In this document: in pieces, positions 14,597-38,099 of the stretch
Layout: every line of letters begins with the position of its first letter
Numbering within the stretch: position 1 is the first letter of the stretch
Virus record (IMG/VR): IMGVR_UViG_3300036859_000076
Span: 1-38,450 of that record
DNA length: 38,450 nucleotides
Source: a virus
Direction: 5' to 3' (one strand)
Made by a program: the position numbers and the translations under genes
Notes under the pieces: model-generated
Databases searched by the model: none
What the model saw: the letters and a program-made list of their open reading frames with translations, nothing else
What the model was told of the DNA's origin: nothing

Positions 14597-15103
14597 TTAT
14601 TGTTTAGCGGTATTTAAGTAAGCAAACTGACCAAAAAAACTTCCAGCCTTTTCATCATACGCATTAGCCGCATTAACCTCAGAGTCAAAATAACCAATGT
14701 GTTTTGTTTTTCCATCTACTTTTATTTGTGCCCTCCACTTTTTGGCGTTCTTTGACCAACAAATCCCTTTGAACTTTGAGGTACAATTTTTTCTTGGCCT
14801 AGCATTCCAAACATTTTGTTGTTGCGTAGAAAACCTAAGATTTTCTTTTTGGTTATTTAATCTGTTGCTATCTATGTGATCTACTTGTTTTCCTTTTTTA
14901 GCATCCATAACCACCCTGTGCATCAAAATAGTAACTTCTTTTCCATTTATTGAAGTTTGAATTTCCGCATACCCAGAATTACCAATTCTCCAGTTTCCTA
15001 AACAAACAAGCCTTTCATAATCCACATCATCAACCATCGCAAAAACGTTGTCTTTCAACGCAGCGTACTTTCTATGATTTACTCTTAGTGGTATGAGTTT
15101 CAT
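14597..15103 (-). CDS. HNH-AP2 homing-type endonuclease, 168 aa
   Basis: The N-terminal region (LKDNVFAMVDDVDYERLV, then NWRI) and the HNH core (MHRVVMD with H62, VDHIDSNRLNNQKENLR with H76) match the HNH_3 type, and an AP2 DNA-binding domain follows (about 109-160: KFKGICWSKNAKKWRAQI, then AANAYDEKAG). Enzymes of this kind nick or cut DNA to copy their own gene into related genomes. It is inserted between two virion genes of the fibre cluster as a free-standing gene. It is a clear paralogue of the protein at 28875-29360, with the same domain order and core wording. Confidence 0.9.
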   Translation of the reverse strand: MKLIPLRVNHRKYAALKDNVFAMVDDVDYERLVCLGNWRIGNSGYAEIQTSINGKEVTILMHRVVMDAKKGKQVDHIDSNRLNNQKENLRFSTQQQNVWNARPRKNCTSKFKGICWSKNAKKWRAQIKVDGKTKHIGYFDSEVNAANAYDEKAGSFFGQFAYLNTAKQ

Positions 15104-18774: not shown

Positions 18775-21700
18775 TTAAGCAGAGGTTGGGTACCAAAGGC
18801 TGGTGTTTCCGACAGGCCCGCTAGTACCAGTCCAAACAAATAACTGACAGGTAAACTGTTCAATTACTGTTGAGACACCCAAGGCTACGTTAGACGTACC
18901 AGAGGCAGCCATTGTAATGGTCTCAGCTGCATCAGATACATTCACCACACACAGTTTCTGACCTTCACGTAAACCAGGGGAAAGAATCACACCAGTCCTA
19001 GAAGCACCGCCACAATCGTAGTAGATAATGTTGGCAGCAGATGAAAGTGTTTCACCGTTACCAGCACCAGTTACCAGAGTTGTGACTGCTTCAAAGAACA
19101 GACCTGCGGTAATTGCCAAAGCTTCTACGTTCGTACCAGTAGCGGAAATGGTTACCGCATTAGCACCGGCTGAGGCTGCACCTGTATCTTGTTCAATGGC
19201 TAACAGGTTAGAAGAAGCTGAGATGCTGCCAGTTGAGTGAATACGAACTAAGTCAGCACCAGCGGCCAGGTTGCCTGTGTGTTGAACGTCCATAGCTGAA
19301 CCTTCCCCAGACACACCAGTGGCGGCTGAGTTAATGTCGATAGCCATACCAGCTACGTTCACCGAACCCATGTCAATTTTAATGACATCGGTGGTGGAGG
19401 CAGCGACGGTGAATGCTACATCGAGGATGGTACCAGCGTGGAGTCCTGTAACATCAAAGTCCATCAACGCTCCCGTACCTGTGTTGGTTACGTTTACGTC
19501 AAAGAGGCTGATGTTTCCTGAGCCGTCGAATGTAACATCGAATAAGTCGGCAGTTCGTAATCCGTTACCAGCATCCAAGGCCATAAATGGAGCAGCTAAA
19601 GCCGCGTCCATATCTACATTGAACACCGTACCAGTCATGGCACCAGAAAGCGCGATGTCCATCATGTTCCCTGTATATACAGCAGAGATATTGATATCCC
19701 AGATGTGTGCATTGCCAGTGGAGCTGTCATCAATTTTGAAGAGGTCGTCAGTTCTGACACCAGCCGCAGCGACTACTAAAGCGCTACCTGCAAGGTTGGT
19801 TCCCATGTCTACTACCAAGGCATCTCCAGTGGCAGCGGCCGCTGAATAGGCAATGTCTAAACAGTTGCCAGTATAAACACCGGTGAAGTTAATATCGAAG
19901 ATGTGGCTGTTTCCAGTACCAGACTCATCGATTTTAATCATGTCGTCCGTTCTAGCGCCAGCACCAGTCAGTACAAGAGCAGAAGCAGCAACCGCATTGG
20001 TCATATCAGCCACAAACACATCACCAGTGGCAGCAGTAGAAAAGGACACATCGATGATGTTCCCTGTATACACGCCGGTCATGTTGATATCGAAGACATG
20101 AGAGTTTCCGGTGGACGAGTCATCAATCTTGATCATGTCGTCAGTCCGAGCACCAGCTCCGGTCAATACCAAGGCGCTACCAGCGACGTTGTTCGTTTGG
20201 TTGATAACAACCGAATCACCTGTAGCAGCAGCGGAGTACCCAATATCAATGACATTCCCTGTGTAAACACCTGAAAGGTTAATATCGAAGATGTGGGAGT
20301 TGCCTGTTGAAGCGTCGTCGATCTTGAAAAGATCATCAGTTCGTGATCCAGCGGCCGTCACAATCATTGCTGAACCAGCTACGTTGTTAGCCATGACCAC
20401 AGAGATAGCTTCACCTGTAGCAGCAGCGGAATAAGTAATATCTAAGACGTTACCAGTTTGAGCGGCCGTAACATCCACGTCCCAGACGTGTCCAGTTGAG
20501 GCACCAGAAACGGCAATCGACATGATGTCGCCTGAAGGAGTGCCAGAATCAGTCACTGCAATTAAGTCAGTAGAACGTGACATGGCACCAGAGGCAACCA
20601 CCAAAGCCTGAGCTGTAGTAGCAGTTGCGCCCAAGTTTACATTCAAGGCATCTCCAGTAGCAGCTACAGCACCGAAAGCAATATCCACAATGTTACCAGT
20701 GTAAACACCAGTCACATCAACGTCGAACAATGGGTTGGAGGCGGCGCCTGTATTGGTTACGTTAATATCAAATAACGTACCACCAGCAGTGCTGCCAGAT
20801 CCATCGAATGTAGCGACAACCATTGGAACGGTACGAACAGCAGCACCAGCGTCAAGCAGTAAAGCTGAACCACCAGTAGCGGCATTCATGTCCAAGTTAA
20901 TCACGTTTCCAGTGAAAGCACCGTCAGCAGACAAATCGATCATATCTGCAGAACCTGTTTGTGTACCAATCAATTCAACAAATGGCTGAGTCCGAGCACC
21001 AGCACCAGAGACTGACAAGGCGGTCATAGCAACCGCATTGGTCATTACGGCACTCCACACGTTTCCAGTGGCCGCAGCACCTGAAGTGAATGACATAACA
21101 TCGCCAGTAAAGACACCGGTTAAGTCAACGTCAATAATATCAGCGCTACCAGTTGAAGCGTCGTTAATATCAAGAGCAGGAGTTGTGCGCACACCTGTAC
21201 CACGAACAATCTGAATAGCCGTAGAATCTAATCCAGCAGCATTATCAAATGTGAGTTTGGCACCAAAGCTAGCGGTTGAACCAGCAGCTGAATCTTGAAA
21301 GTCATATCCAGTTGAGGCACCAGAACCAGTCTTTTCAATGTTGAAGACTGAATGTGTAGCAGTTGAGTCATCTTTGACATCAATATCTTTTCCAGTCCGA
21401 GCACCAGCTCCGTTATCAATAAAGATACCTTTCGCAGCTATCGCGGCGTCCATATCAATATCAATGGCATTGCCTGTAACAGCAGCGCTGAGGGCCATAT
21501 CAATCACATTGCCTGAACCTGCACCAGATTTGGTTAGAGCTAAGGTATTAGCTGAACCAGTTGTAGAATCATTTAAGGTGAGAGCACCTTGGTCGACTGT
21601 AATGGTTTGGCCATTAGAGTATGCGCCATCAAGATCGCTACCAACACCGCCTGAACTCTGACCATTCAGTTTGGATAGAGCGGAACCATTCCACCAATAT

Positions 21701-21834
21701 AAATCGGTAGATTGACGTACGAGTCCAGGGTCAACTGAGGTAGCTGGTGTAGCAGTTTGCGCTGTGCGAAACTGTACCATCTCGCCTACGCTCAGAGAGC
21801 TGTATCGTGACGCTTTTTTTTCTAAGTATGCCAT
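18775..21834 (-). CDS. giant repetitive beta-solenoid-like virion protein, 1019 aa
   Basis: The N-terminal 70 residues resemble a head- or tail-attached module (RQSTDLYWWNGSALSKLNG). Most of the rest is built from short units of the type hxhDhx-TGNxhDIxhxxAATG, giving a predicted parallel beta-solenoid. Between about residues 498 and 760 there are four or five 65-residue repeats, each starting RTDDxxKID(D/E)xxTGNxH. The last 110 residues form a distinct tip (IIYYDCGGASRTGVILSP, then VVNVSDAAETITMAASG). It sits between the capsid gene and the fibre genes, so a long head or tail fibre is likely. Which of the two cannot be told from sequence. The DNA also shows the repeats, at roughly 19560-20345. 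Confidence 0.7.
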   Translation of the reverse strand: MAYLEKKASRYSSLSVGEMVQFRTAQTATPATSVDPGLVRQSTDLYWWNGSALSKLNGQSSGGVGSDLDGAYSNGQTITVDQGALTLNDSTTGSANTLALTKSGAGSGNVIDMALSAAVTGNAIDIDMDAAIAAKGIFIDNGAGARTGKDIDVKDDSTATHSVFNIEKTGSGASTGYDFQDSAAGSTASFGAKLTFDNAAGLDSTAIQIVRGTGVRTTPALDINDASTGSADIIDVDLTGVFTGDVMSFTSGAAATGNVWSAVMTNAVAMTALSVSGAGARTQPFVELIGTQTGSADMIDLSADGAFTGNVINLDMNAATGGSALLLDAGAAVRTVPMVVATFDGSGSTAGGTLFDINVTNTGAASNPLFDVDVTGVYTGNIVDIAFGAVAATGDALNVNLGATATTAQALVVASGAMSRSTDLIAVTDSGTPSGDIMSIAVSGASTGHVWDVDVTAAQTGNVLDITYSAAATGEAISVVMANNVAGSAMIVTAAGSRTDDLFKIDDASTGNSHIFDINLSGVYTGNVIDIGYSAAATGDSVVINQTNNVAGSALVLTGAGARTDDMIKIDDSSTGNSHVFDINMTGVYTGNIIDVSFSTAATGDVFVADMTNAVAASALVLTGAGARTDDMIKIDESGTGNSHIFDINFTGVYTGNCLDIAYSAAAATGDALVVDMGTNLAGSALVVAAAGVRTDDLFKIDDSSTGNAHIWDINISAVYTGNMMDIALSGAMTGTVFNVDMDAALAAPFMALDAGNGLRTADLFDVTFDGSGNISLFDVNVTNTGTGALMDFDVTGLHAGTILDVAFTVAASTTDVIKIDMGSVNVAGMAIDINSAATGVSGEGSAMDVQHTGNLAAGADLVRIHSTGSISASSNLLAIEQDTGAASAGANAVTISATGTNVEALAITAGLFFEAVTTLVTGAGNGETLSSAANIIYYDCGGASRTGVILSPGLREGQKLCVVNVSDAAETITMAASGTSNVALGVSTVIEQFTCQLFVWTGTSGPVGNTSLWYPTSA
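19560..20345 (-). repeat. tandem 195-base coding repeats
   Basis: Four or so units of about 195 bases encode the 65-residue repeats of the giant protein. On the + strand they can be recognised by recurring words such as GTTCCCTGTATACACC and ATCGAAGATGTG. The copies are similar but not identical, so they are old or under diversifying drift rather than a recent expansion. Repeats of this kind are prone to copy-number change by recombination, which may tune fibre length. Confidence 0.65.
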
Positions 21835-27606: not shown

Positions 27607-28878
27607 TTAGTATCCGCCTATTCGGCTTAATGATTTAGTTAATGGTTTACTGCGATCCTTGTCCTGTTCTCTTACGCCTATTTTACTACTTACAGCAAAA
27701 TACCTCCAGGCATCGGCCCCGTTGCTGGCCCAGTTGTGAAGTGGCTCTTTGCTTCGTTGTCCGGTCTCTGTGTTAACTCCCCATTGGTAGTGTCTTAAGG
27801 CATTTAACCCGTCCGCACAATTCTCACGATCAAAGTAACAACGGTTAAATATAGTTCTAGCCGCCATTATACCATCATACCTTGATATACTTGGAGTAAT
27901 ATAGACCTTCCGACCTAATGACCTTAGTTGTTCCTCAACGCTCATTCTTGTTCCTAGACGTTTAGCCTTAGCGTCATGCGGCAGCCAGTCATCACCGTAC
28001 ACATACGGCTTGTCTTTCAACACTTTAACGTAAAAGGCTACGTCGTCCTCTAGGTTGTTCTCGTAATAGTCTATGACATGGAACTCCATACCTGCCCGTT
28101 GAACGAACCATATGGCCGTTAAGTCGCTTCTACCTATGTCCCAGAAGGTATGGACTAGGCTTGAAGAGTCATATGGTACTGATCTGATCCTGTTAGCCAG
28201 CTCTGCCTCCTGTAGTTGCTTGGCGTAGATAGCACCTTCTACAGCCTGCTTACACTTACCTTCCCAGACGTTGAGATAGGCGGCTAAGTCCTTCTCCTTC
28301 AGCTCTAACCGTTCCTGTTCAAGTACTGCCGGAAACCATGGATTGTCCTTATAACTCATCTCAATCACAATACTGTCTTTTGGTGGGTGGACGATAAATC
28401 GTTGATATGTCTCGTCTGTCTCGAGTTCTGGATTAAAGGTGATCCATATTTCTGATCCTTCTTCACGAATAGTAGGGATAAGAATATCCCAGCTAGACTT
28501 AGAAACGGTCTGTGCTTCCTCAATCCAAACCAGGTTGACCCCCTCGAGAGACTTAATTGATTGGATATTGTGTCGTAACCCAGCAAAGATAAACTCCGTA
28601 CCGTTACTCCCTGTAATGGTATTGTTTTGGATGGTGTAAAAGTCATCAAGTTTATTTTTGTTAATAATATCTGATAAAAGTTTGTGAACCGAATCAGCTA
28701 TTGAGTTTTGGTATTCGCGAGTGCAAAGAATCCGTAATGGCTTTTGCGCTCCCTTGATCAATAATGCACACGCTACCGTCCAGCTTTTGCTAGCGCCACG
28801 ACCTCCGAACAGTACCTTGTATCTTTTAGGGGAGAAAAGTGGTTGAACCTTCGTTGGTAAAACTATCTGCGCTATCAT
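27607..28878 (-). CDS. terminase large subunit, 423 aa
   Basis: This is the DNA-packaging motor with its headful nuclease. Walker A is GGRGASKS (25-32), Walker B is VNLVWIEEA (114-122) with the catalytic glutamate at 120-121, and coupling residues follow in EIWITFNP (143-150). The wording ILCTREYQNSIADSV and IKSLEGVNLVWIEEAQ closely matches the Sf6/P22-like motor as I remember it. The RNase H-fold nuclease shows acidic residues in FWDIGRSD (D247), GDDWLPHDAK (D296/D297/D302) and GADAWRY (D389). The ATG overlaps the stop of the HNH gene upstream (ATGA). The length is somewhat shorter than Sf6 gp2 (about 470), within the normal range. Confidence 0.92.
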   Translation of the reverse strand: MIAQIVLPTKVQPLFSPKRYKVLFGGRGASKSWTVACALLIKGAQKPLRILCTREYQNSIADSVHKLLSDIINKNKLDDFYTIQNNTITGSNGTEFIFAGLRHNIQSIKSLEGVNLVWIEEAQTVSKSSWDILIPTIREEGSEIWITFNPELETDETYQRFIVHPPKDSIVIEMSYKDNPWFPAVLEQERLELKEKDLAAYLNVWEGKCKQAVEGAIYAKQLQEAELANRIRSVPYDSSSLVHTFWDIGRSDLTAIWFVQRAGMEFHVIDYYENNLEDDVAFYVKVLKDKPYVYGDDWLPHDAKAKRLGTRMSVEEQLRSLGRKVYITPSISRYDGIMAARTIFNRCYFDRENCADGLNALRHYQWGVNTETGQRSKEPLHNWASNGADAWRYFAVSSKIGVREQDKDRSKPLTKSLSRIGGY

Positions 28879-29360
28879 AACGAAAAGTTTAACCGTGCAA
28901 ACTCACCAGAGTTTTTCTTGGCGGCAACGTCATAAGCTCTAGCTGCGGCCTCTTCGTTATCGAACAGCCCTAAATATCTTTCTCCACCAACTCCTATGTG
29001 CGCTTGCCACTTGCCTGCTTTTTTATGCCAGGACACGCCTTTATACTTTGAACTACCCCCTCGAGAGACTCTTTTATTCGCCTGATTCTGTGTTCCTGTA
29101 GCTATCCGAAGATTTTCCTTCTGGTTATTCAACCCATTACAATCAATGTGATCTACCTCCATGCTTTCTTTAAGTAATCCGTGCCACTCCATCACTACGC
29201 GGTGGAGTAATAGTTTCTTATATCGTGGAGCAGGTTTACGTGCGTGCTTTACTGCGTACCCCCTCGAACCATAATGCCACTTTCCCATCGCCACCAAGCG
29301 GTCGTAATCTTCATCATCGACCAAAGCTACCTGGCCTTTTGATAGTGCTACTTTTTTCAC
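28875..29360 (-). CDS. HNH-AP2 homing-type endonuclease, 161 aa
   Basis: The HNH core has LLHRVVMEWHG (H53), VDHIDCNGLNNQKENLR (H71, N79-type), and an AP2 domain from about 104 to 150 (SKYKGVSWHKKAGKWQAHI, then AARAYDVAAK). It is a close relative of the protein at 14597-15103. Both ends are coupled to neighbours: its ATG overlaps the stop of the gene at 29357 and its stop overlaps the terminase ATG. It may be a selfish insertion or, like some HNH proteins next to terminases (HK97 gp74 type), take part in packaging. The HNH-AP2 type favours homing. Confidence 0.88.
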   Translation of the reverse strand: MKKVALSKGQVALVDDEDYDRLVAMGKWHYGSRGYAVKHARKPAPRYKKLLLHRVVMEWHGLLKESMEVDHIDCNGLNNQKENLRIATGTQNQANKRVSRGGSSKYKGVSWHKKAGKWQAHIGVGGERYLGLFDNEEAAARAYDVAAKKNSGEFARLNFSL

Positions 29361-31237: not shown

Positions 31238-31741
31238 CTACACAATAGACTTCTTACTAGCGGCCTTGGCCCATTGTTCGTCAAATGATCCAAAACGCTT
31301 TTCATAACTACCAACCACCTGCTTACTTAAAAGTCTTCTCTTAAGTTGTTGCCGTTGAGCTTTTCTTATTGACTTTAGTTTAGACTTTTTAGCCTTCCTC
31401 CTACTTTTAATCGTCTTGCCGTAATAAGATGGTTGCCAATTATTCTTTTCAACCGGCATGACCACTCCGCCTCCCGCCTTAATTACAAGCTCTGTCCAAT
31501 AATGAAGTGAATTACTCCTATCTGCCTTAAACAGATCGTGGCACTTAAAATGACACGGCTTACAAAGTAGGACCAAATCACTTAACTTCTCTTCGCCAAG
31601 ACGTTTATATGTTTTGTGGTGAACACCTAGGTTACTACCAGAATTACATGCCTTACAATAAACGTCCCGTATATAAATCAACCTACGTTTCTTCTTCCAC
31701 TCATCAGACTGCATGTATTGCTTATAAAATTCGTATGCCAT
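31238..31741 (-). CDS. HNH endonuclease, 167 aa
   Basis: The core is CKAC (29-32), GVHHKTYKRLGEEKLSDL (39-56) with the metal-binding histidine pair H41/H42, and CKPCHFKCH (60-68). This is a typical four-cysteine HNH finger (McrA-like), unlike the HNH-AP2 pair elsewhere. The C-terminal 60 residues are extremely basic (KSRRKAKKSKLKSIRKAQRQ) and should bind DNA. It is the first gene of the late cluster as read leftward. It may be a homing enzyme or a packaging/host-DNA nuclease. Confidence 0.85.
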   Translation of the reverse strand: MAYEFYKQYMQSDEWKKKRRLIYIRDVYCKACNSGSNLGVHHKTYKRLGEEKLSDLVLLCKPCHFKCHDLFKADRSNSLHYWTELVIKAGGGVVMPVEKNNWQPSYYGKTIKSRRKAKKSKLKSIRKAQRQQLKRRLLSKQVVGSYEKRFGSFDEQWAKAASKKSIV

Positions 31742-36741: not shown

Positions 36742-36920
36742 TCTTACACGCAATAGGTTGGGGGATATTGGCTGGTACTTTATCATACTTTTCTATTTAC
36801 CTTTATAGTTGGTGCACAAAATTGAGATTTAACAGTTCTTTCAAGGCTAGGACATTTCAATATACCGCAAGGCTTTTCTCTCTTCTAATCGGCCTCGCTG
36901 TAACTTTGATACAACTATGA
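36738..36920 (+). CDS. small membrane protein, 60 aa
   Basis: Two hydrophobic helices (about 2-24 and 42-60) with a basic loop (CTKLRFNSSFKARTF) between them. Starts by ATGA overlap with the preceding membrane gene and ends by ATGA overlap with the next gene. No family recognised; likely a partner of the preceding protein. Confidence 0.6.
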   Translation: MILHAIGWGILAGTLSYFSIYLYSWCTKLRFNSSFKARTFQYTARLFSLLIGLAVTLIQL

Positions 36921-37357
36921 CCAACCGACTTGAGGAGTTTGAAGTACAAGCAATGAATATTGTCTATCAAATAGGCGATCTACTTTACACAGCTTTACCG
37001 CCTGACATAGCACATGAACATTTTGTCAAAGCCAGGCAATCAACAAACGACTTAGCAATTGAATTCACAAAGAAAATAATACAACAAACCCTAGACACCC
37101 AACGTGCTGAAATAATAGAGGAACTAGGAGGCTACCCACCTCAACTAGATGTTCATGGACATGTTAAGTATTCTGAGAAACAGTTAAAAGAATATCTCAA
37201 CACCCAACTCTTCATGATTGAGGAGGAGGTGGAAGCTAAACAACGGTATTGGATAGAGTGGTTAAAGAATCCATCTAACGATGACAAGCCACATACGCTT
37301 GGTAGAATCGGCGCTATGGGAGAGATACTCCAACTAATCCACGAAGCTAAACAATAA
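36917..37357 (+). CDS. hypothetical helical protein, 146 aa
   Basis: It is mostly charged helix (RLEEFEVQAMNIVYQIGDLL, EEEVEAKQRYWIEWLKNPSN), with no membrane segment, zinc site or enzyme motif. Coupled at its start with the membrane gene before it. Function unknown. Confidence 0.6.
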   Translation: MTNRLEEFEVQAMNIVYQIGDLLYTALPPDIAHEHFVKARQSTNDLAIEFTKKIIQQTLDTQRAEIIEELGGYPPQLDVHGHVKYSEKQLKEYLNTQLFMIEEEVEAKQRYWIEWLKNPSNDDKPHTLGRIGAMGEILQLIHEAKQ

Positions 37358-37362
37358 ACTAT

Positions 37363-37890
37363 ATGCGTTTCACATTCCCACAACCAACTAAGAATAAGGA
37401 ATCACATAAGAAAAGTTCCAAAGCTATCTTTGAACATGATAAACAAAAGGACGGCTGGACTCTGATCGAGGAAGGCCCAAAACTATCAAAGAAGAATCAG
37501 AAACTAGAGATAGTCTCATTCTTAAAAGAAGGTGAATCCTATATCAACGGAGAAGAAATGAGGAAACGAGCTAAGGAATTAGGTAGTTTAGGTCAACATC
37601 AAGCGGAGCAGTTATTAAAACAAGCGAGTGACATACCAGAGGAGTGGAAGAATTACTACCTACTATTCCCTGAGACAGTCTGGCGGCACCCCGGCGGCCT
37701 CCTCTACGTCCCGTACCTGTACTGGGACGGCGGCAGGTGGGTGCTCCGCTTCGGCTACGTCGACGACGCGGCCGCTGGGATGGCGGCTGTCGGGTCGTCC
37801 GTCTCCGCAAGTGATTGGCCCTTGGACTCCTGTGTTTTGGTACTTTTGTCCCCTTGGATTCTTGGTCCGTCCTGTAGTCCTAGACGCTAA
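37363..37890 (+). CDS. candidate variable-repeat (DGR-type) target protein, 175 aa
   Basis: The first 105 residues are ordinary for this genome: lysine-rich and helical (KLEIVSFLKEGESYINGEEM; EEWKNYYLLFPETVW). From about residue 107 the sequence changes abruptly to a GC-rich segment encoding HPGGLLYVPYLYWDGGRW and VLRFGYVDDAAAG. The wording FPxTVWRxxxGxLxVPYLYW..GRW is one I associate with short proteins from uncultured bacteria and phages, some of them linked to diversity-generating retroelements. The end (SVSASDWPLDSCVLVLLSPW) reads less naturally than frame +2 over the last 80 bases (VIGPWTPVFWYF...), so a frameshift is possible. No reverse transcriptase is in the window. Confidence 0.6.
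   Translation: MRFTFPQPTKNKESHKKSSKAIFEHDKQKDGWTLIEEGPKLSKKNQKLEIVSFLKEGESYINGEEMRKRAKELGSLGQHQAEQLLKQASDIPEEWKNYYLLFPETVWRHPGGLLYVPYLYWDGGRWVLRFGYVDDAAAGMAAVGSSVSASDWPLDSCVLVLLSPWILGPSCSPRR
37681..37880 (+). other. adenine-depleted, GC-rich patch (candidate variable repeat)
   Basis: By my hand count A makes up about 17 of 200 bases (8-9%) on the coding strand, whereas T is about 53 (26%) and the 60 bases just upstream have about 20 A (33%). The last 80 bases of the patch keep low A (about 7) while T rises to about 31, so the effect is not merely high GC. Diversity-generating retroelements mutate adenines of a template copy, giving variable repeats poor in A on the coding strand at the 3' end of a gene, as here. 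Confidence 0.55.
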
Positions 37891-37913
37891 TATAATTAGA
37901 AAACAATAAGGGG

Positions 37914-38099
37914 ATGGAAAAACAAACTATAATTCACTACGGCGTAAACGATCAGTTACCTCAGACTAGGAGGGAATCAATTGCTGCACTGAATAATCTA
38001 GTAGCTCAAATAAAAAAGACGTCCCCTGGAGCAATGATTTTAACAAAAAAACCACCATACAAAATATGGGTGAAGATTAAAAAACTACTAAACCTATGA
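37914..38099 (+). CDS. small basic protein, 61 aa
   Basis: A weak ribosome binding site (AAGGGG) precedes the ATG. The product starts MEKQTIIHYGVNDQLPQTRR and has a central helix (SIAALNNLVAQIKKT) and a basic C-terminus (KIWVKIKKLLNL). Normal AT-rich composition resumes here after the GC-rich patch. Its stop overlaps the next start as ATGA. Function unknown. Confidence 0.6.
   Translation: MEKQTIIHYGVNDQLPQTRRESIAALNNLVAQIKKTSPGAMILTKKPPYKIWVKIKKLLNL

Follow-up and report, generated by a model that had tools for sequence, protein, structure and literature searches.

We found that the 3' end of a gene in the virus record IMGVR_UViG_3300036859_000076 is almost certainly the variable repeat (VR) of a CPR-type (chiefly Paceibacteria) target gene of a diversity-generating retroelement (DGR), which a P22-like tailed phage carries in its early operon. 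The whole chain, in which this phage-borne target lacks a reverse transcriptase (RT) and its VR was most likely written in trans by the DGR of the infected cell, we hold with moderate confidence. CPR-type DGR targets are known; what is new is one carried by a phage without the machinery, with a net 5-nt insertion in its VR. The window, which is the whole stretch of 38,450 nt analysed here, equals the full IMG/VR record and is classed as linear. Its gene set, with a terminase, head proteins, an ERF recombinase and NinG, is that of a tailed, P22-like phage. A complete relative found through the terminase is a circular unassigned podovirus of 36.6 kb, and the wider kin of this terminase include Pseudomonas phages.

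The target gene was recorded as an open reading frame (ORF) of 175 aa at 37363–37890 on the plus strand, with a frameshifted C-terminus. It follows a tightly packed row of phage genes (36499–37357, plus strand), the last of which ends 5 nt ahead of its start (37357 to 37363); homologues of this last gene (36917–37357) were sought in IMG/VR by peptide pattern, and none were found. Since the target gene belongs to the early genes, is encoded on the other strand from the structural genes and starts only 5 nt after its upstream neighbour, its product is probably not a tail protein.

Analysis of the base composition confirmed the adenine-poor, GC-rich patch that the original prediction had placed at 37681–37880. 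The patch contains 8.5% A, 26.5% T, 33% G and 32% C (65% GC), and the 200-base windows elsewhere in the record have a minimum of 13% A and a maximum of 59% GC. The predicted loss of A without a matching loss of T is therefore evident. The composition flips sharply within the single ORF: the segment 37363–37678 has a phage-like composition (40.5% A, with 39% GC in the constant part), 37679–37812 has 9% A and 72% GC, 37813–37890 has 38.5% T and 11.5% A, and A is back up to 44.5% in 37891–38099. The A-poor stretch splits into two adjoining features, a coding patch (37679–37811) and a T-rich tail (37815–37884). The rise of T in the last 80 bases, which had been taken as part of the same signature, is thus real but belongs to a tail that follows the expected stop, not to the VR.

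Homologues of the phage gene were found in CPR genomes. A degenerate DNA pattern (P x T x W ... V P x L x W x G), run on 84,980 bacterial and archaeal genomes, matched 20 stretches, of which five are from Patescibacteria (Wildermuth-, Komeili-, Yanofsky-, Colwell- and Parcubacteria); a homologue is encoded in each of these five. By profile, family members were detected in 48 of 380 genomes sampled across the Patescibacteria phylum, in 86 of 384 sampled from one class, and in 61 of 244 from one order. The phage gene shares 41–52% identity with many CPR targets over the constant domain and the VR scaffold. Its constant N-terminal part (37363–37678, plus strand), assigned by homology to CPR targets and by HMM, is closest to the Colwellbacteria target L045, with identity of up to about 51%. 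The VR (37679–37811, plus strand), placed by alignment to 26 template repeats (TRs) as the counterpart of the segment copied from the TR in relatives, encodes the scaffold W..GG.L.VPYL.W.GGRW.L.F..., in which VPYL.W.G..W is invariant in the first six family sequences; the region around VPYLYWDGGRW had been read in advance as a conserved scaffold with variable positions. The family HMM matched the phage gene with an E-value of 1.9e-54, the phage sequence being one of the six in the HMM. In the family tree, the phage gene falls inside the CPR set on a long branch, with weak support and no clear sister. Only about 30 aa precede its conserved domain, fewer than in most chromosomal relatives. No Pfam family was found for the gene 37363–37890, and PHROGs gave a weak "homing endonuclease" match (E = 0.006) to the helical part of the target protein. 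Direct protein and DNA look-ups of the gene in a phage collection and IMG/VR returned no match, and neither did a tight VR-skeleton pattern in IMG/VR. A looser skeleton pattern gave 23 chance matches with no DGR target among them, and a further VR pattern gave a single match, also due to chance.

Analysis of the CPR loci revealed the template repeats of this family. In 26 loci, a near-copy of the target 3' end (the TR) lies 351–568 nt downstream of the VR, and comparison of the 26 cis VR/TR pairs showed differences at 465 of 849 template adenines and at 13 of 2383 other bases. An RT with the motif GLPLGNLTS follows the TR in nearly all loci checked. In L046/L044, the target is followed by the TR 409 nt downstream and then by the RT, and in the L046 RT the GLPLGNLTS motif is followed by Q, the form known from DGR RTs. 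The VRs of 18 relatives contain 6–16% A and 57–75% GC irrespective of the composition of their constant parts, and the phage VR (9% A, 72% GC) is typical of them. In these relatives, an RNA copy of the TR is turned into cDNA that has random bases in place of adenines, and the VR is overwritten with this cDNA, which changes residues of the small C-terminal domain; such adenine-randomised rewriting of the VR explains the loss of A alone from the 3' end.

To compare the phage VR with the TRs of its relatives, eight close-type TRs were aligned and the columns shared by at least 80% of them were scored. Mismatches fall at 15 of 23 A, 2 of 12 C, 5 of 15 G and 0 of 14 T columns, that is, at 15 of 23 A columns and 7 of 41 non-A columns (p = 1.5e-4); against all 26 TRs, 14 of 22 A columns and 5 of 38 other columns differ (p = 8.5e-5), both p-values serving as a guide because the sites are partly dependent on one another. 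The same pattern appeared for seven of eight real VRs when, as a positive control, each was matched against TRs from other genomes only. Homology of DNA and protein to CPR VRs that have a TR and RT, together with this bias (15/23 versus 7/41), upholds the predicted reading of the 3' end as a DGR variable repeat. An ordinary GC-rich gene end unrelated to DGRs, for which the missing TR and nothing more can be cited, is hardly credible given the homology to VRs with visible TRs, the adenine-column bias and the shared tail. A second target-like copy was observed at L086 (genome G254; ORF from offset 10242), whose VR has two A and three non-A mismatches to the TR; it is perhaps a freshly seeded, undiversified target or a second TR.

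Comparison of the phage VR with the TRs by MAFFT alignments (with 11 and 8 TRs) revealed a net 5-nt insertion at 37768–37775 (plus strand), where the phage has GCGGCCGC and the aligned TRs have 3 nt, so that the reading frame is shifted. Beyond the insertion, the other frame reads WDGGCRVVRLRK, which resembles the RLVRxRK of relatives, and the family's expected stop, TGA at 37812–37814 (plus strand), lies where relatives end in ...RK*. The RLVRxRK-like end and the CTTGG-rich tail are thus both present in the phage, with the stop out of frame in the recorded allele. As a consequence of the shift, 37815–37884 is read as coding, the recorded protein runs through the tail, and the final strands of the domain, equivalent to residues 134–144 of the L045 structure model, are lost. 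The phage gene is not alone in its family in having VR indels: L163 has a frameshift and L088 a 3-nt deletion. The frameshift in L163, a CPR target of genome G726, lies at a CCCC run, and together with the phage VR it suggests either that broken alleles of the VR are no rarity or that both are assembly errors. DGR reverse transcription is reported to add and remove bases in AAC repeats (PMC12875486), but in multiples of three, and the 5-nt change is no direct fit. The insertion may be a genuine null allele, the product of a merged assembly, or the mark of a cognate TR of another length.

Hypervariable stretches assemble poorly, and the frame-breaking insertion could be taken as a sign of misassembly, either of a CPR DGR target onto a phage contig or of several VR alleles into one; merging of alleles could possibly explain the 5 nt. 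We consider such an artefact very improbable, because the break lies inside a gene whose two halves have their homologous counterparts, in the same order, in a single intact CPR gene, because the gene begins 5 nt past a phage-like gene and the A-rich phage composition returns directly after the tail, and because a CPR cassette would have come with its TR.

The T-rich tail (37815–37884, plus strand), identified by composition and CTTKG count, contains 40% T and 10% A, and the corresponding tails of relatives mostly contain 25–44% T (18% in two) and 10–28% A. The phage tail has three CTTKG motifs in 72 nt, a count reached by 0.2% of the windows of the record. A stretch of repeated CTTGG/CTTTG follows the stop in many CPR relatives and is strong in part of them, and its retention in the phage accounts for the rise of T in the last 80 bases. 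Bordetella phage BPP-1 needs a hairpin for efficient homing (PMC3240598), and by analogy with the BPP-1 IMH-hairpin, the tail may possibly be a cis-acting target-recognition element. In most CPR relatives, a strong GC-rich hairpin, which may be a terminator, follows the tail. Folding of the sequence after the phage VR gave no evident compact hairpin (z-score of 0.2), which counts against a target written in trans when set beside the relatives and the requirement in BPP-1.

The original prediction had also stated that neither a template repeat nor an RT is present. Searches of the whole record for a second copy of the VR and, with PF00078, for an RT were both empty, in agreement with that statement; the near-copy and the nearby RT that it proposed to look for are thus absent from the record, and TRs with mismatches at adenines were seen in the 26 CPR relatives. 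As to complete-cassette features, the record, which may be incomplete, holds neither a TR near-identical to the VR nor a DGR-type RT. The best-matching TR is that of L046, yet 21 non-A positions differ, indicating that it is the template of a relative and not the phage VR's own. The target gene itself was absent from the fetched stretches of 59 terminase relatives and from the whole records of 33 of them (0/33).

The phage might have its own TR and RT in a genome part missing from the linear record, the VR lying 640 nt from the end of the record. This seems rather unlikely, since the position canonical for the TR in relatives (350–570 nt from the VR) lies wholly inside the record and is filled by small phage ORFs, among them one at 37914–38099 (plus strand). 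In addition, the circular complete relative measures 36.6 kb, so that the 38.45 kb of the record probably come close to the full genome size; an RT was found in none of 22 related phage records; and a pattern search of IMG/VR for a CPR-type TR gave no match.

Targets without a nearby TR are common in CPR genomes, and in at least one clear case, judged by sequence comparison, a VR is served in trans inside a CPR cell. In genome G235, the VR of L088 on contig C11 and the TR of L089 on contig C7 differ at 19 A and at no non-A position, apart from the 3-nt deletion. Most orphan CPR targets mismatch the TRs found in their own genome, so the evidence for trans action is clean in one genome only. Several family targets on different contigs were also observed in G105, G460, G480 and G482 (L081–L085, L181–L184, L188–L193), most of them without a matching TR in the same genome. 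For the phage, the prediction had allowed that the machinery acts in trans or lies outside the window. The empty TR position and the G235 case lean toward action in trans, but a cognate TR and RT were not found.

The phage VR would thus most likely have been written in trans by the DGR of an infected cell, and it could possibly still be rewritten today. The cell that supplies the TR and RT, continued activity in the phage and the binding of something by the protein are all inferred. We tentatively propose that the RT-less target is kept by the phage to have an early protein hypermutated in trans by the DGR of a CPR host. Beside the hairpin, three observations weigh against the trans-written target: the lack of a cognate TR, with 21 non-A differences to L046; for a CPR host, the terminase, which is weakly matched in 4 of 384 CPR genomes at 25–31% identity; and the frameshift in the recorded allele, which would cost the protein the final strands of its domain. 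Structural and replication genes of the record were sought beside CPR targets, and none were found. Two CPR genomes, G644 (L179) and G457 (L178), were seen to have a distant terminase together with genes resembling a small terminase or a portal, which belong to the same general type of phage.

The net 5-nt frameshift inside the VR, the lack of a hairpin downstream and the absence of TR and RT would also suit a fossil, that is, an already diversified CPR target that was picked up by the phage, on which no DGR acts now and whose VR is decaying; for archaeal VRs that lack an RT, fossils and remote targets have both been proposed as explanations (PMC4372165). We regard a fossil as an unlikely explanation. 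The constant part is phage-like (41% A, 39% GC) and sits in a tight operon, which argues against a fresh arrival, whereas the VR and tail keep their CPR look (9–10% A), which points to maintenance or re-writing. This argument is tempered by the relatives, in which VR composition is likewise independent of constant-part GC. Frameshift and indel alleles of the VR occur in CPR genomes as well (L163, L088).

The AlphaFold2 model of the relative L045 (pLDDT of 84.7) begins with a helical part, after which comes a small beta domain with the VR at its end. A Foldseek search of this model against PDB and BFVD gave nothing significant. In a second-look comparison with PDB, C-type lectins took 11 of the 13 top places, with Z-scores of only 3.4–4.9. 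The annotated VR regions of DGR targets are generally C-type lectin-like (PMC8144416), and the predicted ranking suits DGR targets in general without being proof.

Compared with the known systems, the phage gene is closest to CPR DGRs such as L046/L044 (Parcubacteria RIFCSPHIGHO2_02_FULL_40_12), which have the same target family, with the likeness running from where the conserved domain begins as far as the stop, and share the VR scaffold, the A-poor composition and the T-rich CTTGG tail. The phage target differs from them in lying in a phage operon, in having no TR 350–570 nt downstream and no RT, and in its frameshifted VR. The RTs of the relatives were placed, on the basis of host phylum, in DGR clade 2, which is described as almost entirely cellular (Roux et al. 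2021; PMC8144416). Remote (orphan) targets, as suspected in nanoarchaea (PMC4372165) and as in L088 of G235, likewise have a VR with an adenine signature and no cis TR or RT; the phage target is viral, however, which would put its template in another genome than its own. The Bordetella phage BPP-1 gene mtd is also a phage gene with a C-terminal VR, a likeness of layout; BPP-1 has a cis TR, avd and RT and diversifies a tail protein, whereas the present target has no RT and sits with the early genes, on the other strand from the structural genes. CPR-type DGR targets have no known function, and surveys that demand an adjacent RT miss remote targets (PMC8144416). A phage-borne target without an RT suggests that viruses and CPR cells exchange such genes and that the mutator of the cell may be used by the virus; if true, a virus would exploit the targeted-mutation machine of its host. 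The target gene may also connect this group of phages with CPR bacteria. The A-poor gene end, the VPYLxWxGxxW scaffold and the CTTGG tail together offer a recipe for finding further RT-less viral targets.

Elsewhere in the record, three ORFs on the minus strand (14597–15103, 28875–29360 and 31238–31741) look by eye like homing endonucleases of the HNH/AP2 type and are possibly invading elements; one of them stops where the terminase gene begins. The structural region also encodes a 1019-aa protein (18775–21834, minus strand) with degenerate repeats of SALVLTGAGARTDDMIKIDDSSTGNSHxFDIN.
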